Source of the DNA: Candidatus Jettenia sp. | GTDB lineage: Bacteria > Planctomycetota > Brocadiia > Brocadiales > Brocadiaceae | Length of the DNA stretch: 64,000 nt | Assembly (NCBI GenBank): GCA_021650895.1 | Contig: CP091278.1 | Location: 1,331,659-1,395,658, forward strand | Direction: 5' to 3' | Shown here: piece by piece, positions 1 through 4,434 of the stretch | Numbering within the stretch: the first letter of the stretch is position 1 | How the letters are laid out: every line of letters begins with the position of its first letter | Made by a program: the position numbers and the translations under genes | Notes under the pieces: model-generated | The model's database searches: none | What the model saw: the letters and a program-made list of their open reading frames with translations, nothing else | Told to the model about the DNA's origin: nothing

Positions 1-1758
1 CTAAGACATGGAAAATATCTTCTGGATGTATGTGGTCAATCCTAAATGAAGGGTTCTCAACAAATTCATTCGGCTCATATCCTATCATCCTTTTACTATT
101 ACTACTCATAAATGTAACACCATAATTGTCGAACGGTTTAGAACTATAGATAACCGCAGGACTATTCGTAAGGAGGTATTCCAACCGGGATTGGATTTCG
201 ATAAGTTTCTTTTTTATCATCTTTCGCTCAGTAATATCCTGAGTTGTTCCGCTTATCTGAATCGGCTTACCGGTATGATCAAAAACGACCTCAGCCTGTG
301 TATGAATACTACGTTCAGAACCATCTGGCAGAACTATGCGTACATCAATACAGCAAGGCTTTCCCTCATAAAGGGCATTGTTAACAGATTTTTTTAAGAA
401 TTCTCTATCATCGGGATGAATGCGTTCCAAAATGGCCTCATAGGTTGCATCAAATGACTGCGGTGTTACACCAAAGATGCGATAGTGTTCATCTGACCAG
501 TGTATTTTATTTTTTATTATGTCCCAATCCCAGCTTCCCAAATGGGCAATCCGTTGTGCATTAACAAGACTGGCCTCACTTTTTCTCAGCGCATCCAGTA
601 GAGATTTTTGTCTTTTCATTTCATCCTTAAGATGCTCAGCCATGATATTAAATCTGCTTGCCAGGATACCCATCTCATCCTTACCCGTTATCTTTATTCG
701 ATACTCTAACTCTCCTTGTGAAAATCTCCCTGTTGCATGTATTAATTCCTCAATAGACCTGGTCATCGAAATGGCATAGATAATTCCAAAGATAATCACC
801 GTGCCAGCCATACCTATCCAGAGAATTGATACAATGATACTGATCGTTTTTATTGGTGCAAATACTTCTGACTCATCCATCTCTGCCAAAAGTGTCCAGC
901 CATATTCAGGCATATACATGGAAGCACCAACAACAGACACCCCCCGATAGCCTTTATAAATACCAACCATCTCCTCACCACTCTTGATACTCTTACGAAT
1001 AGGCTCAGTATCTATTCTCTGTTTGAGTGATGCATTCTCCATAAACCTTGATTCAGTAAGCATTGTCTTATCCCTGGTAACCAGGTATACCTCGCCAGTT
1101 TTTCCTAATCCAACACGGTTGGTTGTAATCTCGTTTAAGACTTCAAGGGAATAGGCAATGATCAAGGCACCAAGAGGTTCATCATGATGTTTACGGTAAA
1201 TGGGCGCAGAGACAAAGAAGCAATTTTTAGGTAGGTAGGTAGGTAGGTAGGTAGGTAGGTAGGTAGGTAGGTAGGTGTGGGCTGACCAACGTATGATTCT
1301 CCGTAGTTCTTCTTCATCCCTTGCACAAAGGCATCCTGATCGGACATATCCTTACCAAACAATCTTTCATTCGTGGACGAAATAACCCTGCCATACCTAT
1401 CCACAATAAATACAGCAACAAAATGCCTGTGCAGGGGCATTTTACTCTCAGAGAGATGTCTATCTAAACCAAGTATCATTCTTCGATCAGTATCTCCTCC
1501 ACGAACAATTGTCTTAACCTTCATTCTTATATACCCATCAGTGCTAAAGTCTGCTGCACGTGCCTTTGCTCTCTCCATAGAAACAAGGATGTGCTGTTCT
1601 CTTGATTCTGCAACGGCCTTCAACTTCTCGGTAACTTGATACGTGAGAATACTTTTTACATGAAGGTAGTATATCGAGGTAATGATAGCAATAGGTATGA
1701 GAGAGATAGAAAGGCTGAATACGATTAATTTACTCTTTATTGATCGAAATAGATTCAT
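1..1758 (-). CDS. dCache-HAMP-PAS sensor (histidine kinase?), out of frame at a tetranucleotide repeat; cut by left window edge
   Basis: The reading frame from the ATG at 1758 encodes an N-terminal membrane helix and a periplasmic sensor region, enters an (ACCT)12 tract as repeated PTYL, then stops at 1162 after 198 residues. In the neighbouring frame, from about 1228 to base 1, I translated an uninterrupted continuation: the second half of a dCache domain (GKTGEVYL, EYGWTLLAEMD), a membrane helix, a HAMP domain (MTRSIEELIHATGRFSQGEL), and at least one PAS domain (GSWDWDIIKNKIHWSDEHY), with a second PAS-like stretch near the edge. The output domain lies outside the window, so kinase, cyclase or other is open. 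With 12 repeat units the full-length protein is not made; 10 or 13 would restore it. A sequencing slip in the repeat is the alternative explanation. Confidence 0.85.
1229..1276. repeat. Tetranucleotide microsatellite (AGGT)12 / (ACCT)12
   Basis: Twelve perfect tandem units inside the sensor coding region. On the coding strand 11 bases precede the tract from an in-frame GGT codon, so the downstream frame is correct only if 11 + 4n is divisible by 3, that is n = 10, 13 and so on. The present n = 12 is the off state. Tracts of this kind mutate by slipped-strand mispairing and underlie phase variation in other bacteria. Confidence 0.95.
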
Positions 1759-2844: not shown

Positions 2845-4434
2845 TCATTTCCCCCATTCTTTCCGCTTCCATCCCAGCAACATATCGGTATATTCTCCAT
2901 GCTTCCAGAATGGATAAGCGGTATGCTTTATGCCAAGTTTCTCTTCAATTTCTGCAAAGCGTTTAAGCTTACTGGCTTCATCCTTGATCTGAATAAGCCA
3001 TCGGTCCTGAGCCCACTCCCAATAACCATAGATTGGACTGTAATAGGCATTGTGGGATTTGGCCTTGTAAATAGCACCGACAATATCAACTAACATCTCG
3101 TAGGTTAATCTCTCGATATTGGAGACATTATATTTCCGCATCTCTCCTTTCCCCGGTAAAAGGCTAAATACCGTATGACCTCTGGAATCGGGAGCAAGGT
3201 CGTCAGGCATGGGATCAATGAGATTATCCCTGTATAAGTTCATTACAATACCCATTGCTTCACGATATTTCATAAAACTTAATTTTACCGCCTCATCCAT
3301 GGCTTCTAAATGATCCTTAGCAAATCTGGGTGAATGACAACCTTTACAGACATTAATCCATGCATCACGTGTTGGCTTATAACGATAGGCGCCCCGGTCT
3401 ACAAGAGAAGTACCCATATAAGTATAAACAGTAGACATCCTCGTAACATTATGTTCTCCTTCAGGCATATGGCAATACGCACAGGTTGGTACTACGTAGT
3501 TTTTAGCATTGAGAGGTTTTGTCCAATCCCATGTCTGCCCTTCACCCTGATACATCATACCATGATACGACTGCATATACATTTCATATTCATATTGCTC
3601 AGGACCGGAATGGCACACCGCACAACTCGTAGGTTTTCTTGCCTCAGCCGTAGAAAACCGGTGCCGTGTATGACAGCCATCACACCGGTTCTCGGCAATG
3701 GCATGACAGGCCAAACAGGCAGTTGTCTCTTCGGCAGGTTTCTCCATTTGACATCCCTGGTCTATAAGCTCAAGATGATAGGCGTGGGCATGCGAGCCTC
3801 GATCACCATCACGATGCCCCTTGAGTTGTTTCTCATGACATTCGCCACAGATAGTATATGAGGGCATTACAAGCCTCTCATGATTCTTCCCATGACATCG
3901 GTCACAACCAACAACTTCCTTACCTTCAGATGGCGTTCCATGCTTGCTTTGCTTCCATTGGGTCACAATGCCCGGACTTTCTCCCATATGACAGGTGATA
4001 CATTGCTCATGAGTATATTCACCGGTTACCGTACTACCGGGATGAAAGACATCACTATTAAAATAATATGCAGGGTCATACCATCGTATTACAGGAAGAA
4101 ATTTATAGAGATGCCCTAATTTCCCCTTTCCCGGAAAGAGTTCTCTCGGGCCAGTGTAGTAGCTTGCAAGACCACCCATCTTATAGACATCCCCAGAATC
4201 ATCCGCTCCAACCTTTTCTTCCAAAAGTTCAGCCATTTCATGGCGGAATTTCATATTACCCGGTACTCTGTGTGGTGTTGCATTTGTCTTAACTACTGGT
4301 ATATCAACGATTTGTGGATTTATATTTTCAGATTGAAGTTGAAAAGAATAGGTAATGGTTTGAGGAATAAAAAAAATGTATATAAAGAATAAAGAAATGA
4401 AGAATTGCTTTGTAGTAAAATATAGTTTATTCAT
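2845..4434 (-). CDS. Octaheme c-type cytochrome, hydroxylamine oxidoreductase (HAO)-like
   Basis: 529 residues with a hydrophobic signal sequence (residues about 8-30) and eight CXXCH motifs at residues 145, 177, 196, 240, 251, 271, 318 and 363, the count and spacing of the HAO family. HAO-like proteins are periplasmic or anammoxosomal; different paralogues oxidise hydroxylamine or hydrazine, or reduce nitrite. Oxidative members carry a tyrosine after the last heme that crosslinks to the catalytic P460 heme. The Tyr-rich stretch HNAYYSPIYGYWEW (461-474) is a candidate region, but I cannot decide the subtype without an alignment. The start codon lies 16 bases after the gcvH stop, so the two are probably co-transcribed. 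Confidence is high for the family and low for the substrate. Confidence 0.92.
   Translation of the reverse strand: MNKLYFTTKQFFISLFFIYIFFIPQTITYSFQLQSENINPQIVDIPVVKTNATPHRVPGNMKFRHEMAELLEEKVGADDSGDVYKMGGLASYYTGPRELFPGKGKLGHLYKFLPVIRWYDPAYYFNSDVFHPGSTVTGEYTHEQCITCHMGESPGIVTQWKQSKHGTPSEGKEVVGCDRCHGKNHERLVMPSYTICGECHEKQLKGHRDGDRGSHAHAYHLELIDQGCQMEKPAEETTACLACHAIAENRCDGCHTRHRFSTAEARKPTSCAVCHSGPEQYEYEMYMQSYHGMMYQGEGQTWDWTKPLNAKNYVVPTCAYCHMPEGEHNVTRMSTVYTYMGTSLVDRGAYRYKPTRDAWINVCKGCHSPRFAKDHLEAMDEAVKLSFMKYREAMGIVMNLYRDNLIDPMPDDLAPDSRGHTVFSLLPGKGEMRKYNVSNIERLTYEMLVDIVGAIYKAKSHNAYYSPIYGYWEWAQDRWLIQIKDEASKLKRFAEIEEKLGIKHTAYPFWKHGEYTDMLLGWKRKEWGK

Follow-up and report, generated by a model that had tools for sequence, protein, structure and literature searches.

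A putative slippage-driven ACCT switch in a sensor histidine kinase gene of an anammox bacterium

Can a simple-sequence repeat of the kind that switches genes at random in pathogens also decide whether an environmental autotroph perceives a signal? The question is raised by a run of ACCT units inside a sensor kinase gene on a stretch of 64,000 nucleotides (hereafter the window) from Candidatus Jettenia sp. (contig CP091278.1, assembly GCA_021650895.1; here G000). Research on repeat-driven phase variation has, to our knowledge, dealt nearly always with host-adapted bacteria, and for the most part with their surface and DNA-modification genes. Anammox bacteria are obligately autotrophic, non-pathogenic and slow-growing organisms used in nitrogen removal, and a literature search found no paper on phase variation or contingency loci in them. 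The genome encodes a hydrazine dehydrogenase (1,237 bits against an equivalog cut-off of 900 bits) and its owner is therefore an anammox bacterium, as the sequence-only reading had supposed. The evidence presented below leads us to consider, with a probability of roughly three in four, that the tract is a slippage-driven contingency locus switching a sensor kinase.

The ACCT tract within the sensor domain

The tract was returned by Tandem Repeats Finder as 12.2 copies of TAGG at 1228-1276 with 100% matches, and it forms, inside a gene, a pure short-unit repeat of a length far above chance, about 1e-16 such tracts being expected per genome under a first-order Markov model of the window (Table 1). 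It is also the sole tetranucleotide tract of at least 4 units in 424 kb of G000, sampled as the window together with 18 stretches of 20 kb each at even spacing. Pattern searches of this genome for RYYY and RRYY (at least 7 units) and RYRY (24 bases) repeats yielded no further perfect repeat, and a pattern search for poly-G tracts of at least 10 found none in the three congeners. A hexanucleotide run, (CCAATA)6, occurs elsewhere in G000 (L114:7440), where the frame would survive a change in length.

Table 1. Location of the features discussed, in window positions unless a contig or stretch is named
Feature	Position	Strand	Remarks
(ACCT)12 tetranucleotide tract	1229..1276 (1228-1276 with partial unit)	-	PTYL repeats encoded in every frame
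ORF1: kinase gene start, N-terminal membrane helix and first dCache half	1162..1758	-	198 codons at 12 units
Downstream kinase frame: second dCache half, HAMP, PAS, HisKA, HATPase_c	1..1227, continuing past the window	-	ends at G000:C1:1329944
Second half of dCache_1	884..1165	-	residues 1-94 of the 959-aa frame
HAMP	626..772	-	residues 132-180 of the 959-aa frame
PAS_3	245..508	-	residues 220-307 of the 959-aa frame
HAO/HDH-like multihaem cytochrome (neighbour, not part of the switch)	2845..4434	-	upstream of the kinase, same strand
(GGAA)21, G000	G000:C1:1770346-1770429 (L184:10346-10429)		
(GGAA)7, G001	L175:3313-3340		
(GGAA)12, G002	L176:3338-3385		

At 12 units the stop of ORF1 falls about 22 codons past the tract, while the neighbouring frame, one step over, meets no stop for about 980 codons (959 when counted from the TTG at 1165) and ends about 1,714 bases to the left of the window. 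The reading frame is set by the number of units and a full-length product is obtained at some lengths: uninterrupted reading is possible in G000 only at 7, 10, 13 or 16 units (1,158 codons at 13), and the assembled state of 12 units is OFF, one unit short of ON. The sequence-only reading had described twelve perfect ACCT units in a sensor domain, an entering frame closed 22 codons later, an alternative frame open for more than 1.2 kb to the window edge, ON states at 10, 13 or 16 units, and dCache, HAMP and PAS motifs in the correct order; each of these points holds, 7 units being an additional ON length.

When the two frames are joined, the N-terminal 336 residues match dCache_1 with 89 bits against a cut-off of 45 bits, whereas either half alone stays below that cut-off (ORF1 by itself gives a partial match over residues 41-159). 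Downstream, HAMP, PAS_3 (two stretches), PAS_4, HisKA and HATPase_c follow, so that the ON frame presents the order dCache-HAMP-PAS-HisKA-HATPase_c of a histidine kinase with all domains above their curated cut-offs and with the H-box (HEINNP), N-box and glycine boxes intact. The top NCBIfam model is AtoS with a score far under its cut-off, and for this reason no specific function can be assigned to the kinase. No response regulator was found adjacent to the gene, a PDB sequence search with the sensor domain gave no match, and a single scan of contigs of named relatives yielded distant kinases alone, with no congener among them. For the AlphaFold2 model of an in-frame G000 paralogue (mean pLDDT 87), Foldseek gave matches to solved dCache domains, among them those of DctB, PctA and Mlp24, and the residues that the tract replaces form in this model a turn between strands 160-162 and 167-177 of the membrane-distal module. 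The tract belongs to the distal half of dCache, at a turn where, judging from the model, insertions are likely tolerated. With 7 to 16 units, the ON forms would gain about 3 to 15 residues (PTYL repeats) at this turn, and since this gain varies with the ON length, the ON lengths could differ in sensing too.

The orthologue in a sister species and the state of the downstream frame

The sister species G002 harbors a syntenic orthologue, with 93% nucleotide identity across the surrounding segment, in which the tract is a pure (ACCT)16 with slightly different flanks. Both frames are kept intact there and the downstream frame is equally long; the gene would be ON at 9, 12, 15 or 18 units and is OFF at 16, requiring one unit fewer. 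The sequence-only reading had asked for the repeat number in orthologues and had named a single fixed length or a plain pseudogene as outcomes that would speak against phase variation; the data from the two species (12 versus 16 units, the other OFF phase, intact frames) fit neither of them and favor a switch. As copy number differs in the sister species, a random switch of the pathogen type probably works in an environmental bacterium as well. Consensus assemblies can miscount repeats, and the real tract might then have one fixed in-frame length. Such an error is very improbable considering that two independent genomes show unlike lengths that are both out of frame, that tracts of 49-68 bp are shorter than ordinary reads and that a tetranucleotide is not a homopolymer.

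It could also be proposed that one or two polypeptides are made at every length, by ribosomal or transcriptional frameshifting at the repeat or by reinitiation at a TTG codon (1162-1165, TTGA), which at 12 units overlaps the TGA stop of ORF1. However, G000 needs one unit more and G002 one unit fewer, and with OFF steps in opposite directions no one fixed programmed frameshift explains both. Additionally, the ORF1 frame of G002 stops elsewhere, which means that the overlap of stop and start does not serve both species, and the split would cut a dCache domain that the paralogues keep whole; we therefore give this explanation little credence.

A recent pseudogene, in which the tract was frameshifted in both species, perhaps separately, and the kinase is now decaying, deserves closer consideration. 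Between G000 and G002, 212 substitutions after the tract created zero stops, aligned indels were of whole codons only, and the third codon position was the most frequently substituted (62, 57 and 93 by position). When these substitutions were placed at random, the mean number of stops was 6.2 and 0.14% of trials were free of them, that is, P = 0.0014 if all downstream substitutions are neutral, but only about 0.05 by our estimate with the same mean if half of them are. Coding capacity downstream of the tract has thus been kept by selection, although the constraint is weak, since the dN/dS of the kinase (0.42) exceeds that of five neighbours (0.08-0.17) and is threefold the value for an in-frame paralogue among the dCache kinases (0.14). 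Elevated dN/dS is predicted by part-time expression and equally by recently begun decay; this is the main remaining uncertainty and the reason why decay stays a rival, and the finding that both assemblies are out of frame and that the gene is missing from the congener G001 can be read in the same direction. The presence of two OFF assemblies is nevertheless compatible with chance (4/9 if the states are equally likely), 254 substitutions have left about 1,140 codons free of stops and frameshifts in both lineages, the kinase motifs are intact, and the lesion itself is a reversible, length-variable repeat. Taken together, a pseudogene appears rather unlikely, and phase variation is the reading supported by the orthologue comparison, tempered by the dN/dS value, the two OFF assemblies and the absence from the third congener. 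Along the kinase, synonymous divergence between G000 and G002 (L048) is a mosaic, with dS of 0.30 in the PAS region and 0.05 in the last 477 codons, a pattern that suggests recombination between the two species.

In G001 the kinase is missing together with its HAO-like neighbour, with about 110 bases between the flanking genes (L111, G001:C27); loss is the simpler reading because many members of the family have the HAO-like gene. A gcvT-gcvH-HAO-like cluster is kept in several genera. A conserved functional link between the kinase and the HAO-like gene was considered and is unsupported, as no kinase was found within about 1.5 kb of this cluster in those genera. Dispersed repeats are also present beside the kinase (window positions about 2169-2641, and L017:33-234), matching many places in G001 and G002 at 80-96%.

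Origin of the tract and a second tetranucleotide tract

In about 30 paralogues and homologues the site of the tract is a short repeat-free loop (e.g. GQPHYSPYLHANC), often SPYL. When encoded as TCN CCN TAC CTN, SPYL holds nearly two CCTA units, and G002 retains TCA CCC TAC C ahead of its tract. The tract probably arose by local expansion of this SPYL codon seed before the split of G000 and G002. Both tracts are pure in spite of a divergence of about 9% in the adjoining coding sequence, which points to continued turnover by slippage.

A second tract of the genus, composed of GGAA units, is shared by the three congeners. It occupies the 3' end of a KaiB-domain ORF and lies about 20-50 bases ahead of the start of another histidine kinase, which has PAS, HisKA and HATPase_c domains and whose frame is unbroken by the tract; in G002 it is accompanied by degenerate copies. 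Its lengths of 21, 7 and 12 units in G000, G001 and G002 imply that such tracts readily change length in the genus. A change in GGAA length could affect the tail of KaiB, the stop codon of that ORF and the translational coupling to the kinase. The tract came to light through a polypurine search and its stretch was selected on that account; as the repeat classes listed for G000 were RYYY, RRYY and RYRY, with at least the GGAA tract in the polypurine class, we make no claim of statistical enrichment. Some 300-350 bases ahead of the tract (L184, L175), close to its 5' end, the kaiB-like ORF of G000 and G001 has a frame change and an early TAG. The frame of G002 is open at this place (CAG), and in the other two genomes the start of the ORF may therefore have been lost or moved. 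In another genus of the family (G006), an (ACTC)10 tract at the upstream end of a porin-like outer-membrane protein frame (L091:1303-1342) is possibly a further repeat-controlled locus.

Both tracts known in the genus, ACCT and GGAA, adjoin histidine kinases. We tentatively suggest, at somewhat less than even odds, that a small group of histidine kinases in the genus is under repeat control (the dCache kinase and the kaiB-linked one with 7, 12 or 21 GGAA units), in which random switching is a bet on signal perception itself and not on surface structures.

Proposed mechanism and comparison with known phase-variable systems

In the proposed mechanism, slipped-strand mispairing during replication of living cells would add or remove ACCT units. 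At 7, 10, 13 or 16 units the gene would be ON and yield the full dCache-HAMP-PAS-HisKA-HATPase_c kinase of about 1,150-1,160 residues, whereas at other lengths it would be OFF, with a stop at most about 25 codons from the tract that leaves the N-terminal membrane helix and half of the sensor domain. Part of a clonal population would then perceive the signal while the remainder is deaf to it, and such a mixture would presumably be of benefit to the bacterium. If this is true, repeat-driven phase variation extends to environmental autotrophs by way of a sensor kinase, and clonal anammox biomass mixes cells that hear and cells that do not hear a given signal.

The class of mechanism, a simple-sequence contingency locus, is known (compare licA, PMC539331, and bvgS, PMC1891110); what is new is the organism group and the placing of a tetranucleotide switch inside the domain with which a kinase senses its signal, for which the comparison of two species gives support. 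The closest likeness in repeat type is to the tetranucleotide-repeat loci licA (PMC539331) and mod of Haemophilus influenzae and its relatives, where the number of units of an intragenic tetranucleotide ((CAAT)n in licA) modulo 3 sets the frame and gives reversible translational ON/OFF control. In host-adapted pathogens those tracts typically sit close to the 5' end of genes for surface structures or methyltransferases; the anammox tract, on the other hand, is found some 160 codons into a histidine kinase's sensor domain, and its length differs between the assemblies of two species. BvgS of Bordetella pertussis shares the location, a frameshifting repeat within a sensor histidine kinase gene that gives functional and truncated forms (PMC1891110), but there the repeat is a C6/C7 homopolymer in a pathogen with experimentally shown switching, unlike the tetranucleotide of the anammox kinase. 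Finally, the phase-variable CmrRST system of Clostridioides difficile (PMC6837544) similarly places signal transduction under random ON/OFF control, through site-specific DNA inversion of a regulatory segment, whereas the anammox kinase would be switched by repeat slippage.
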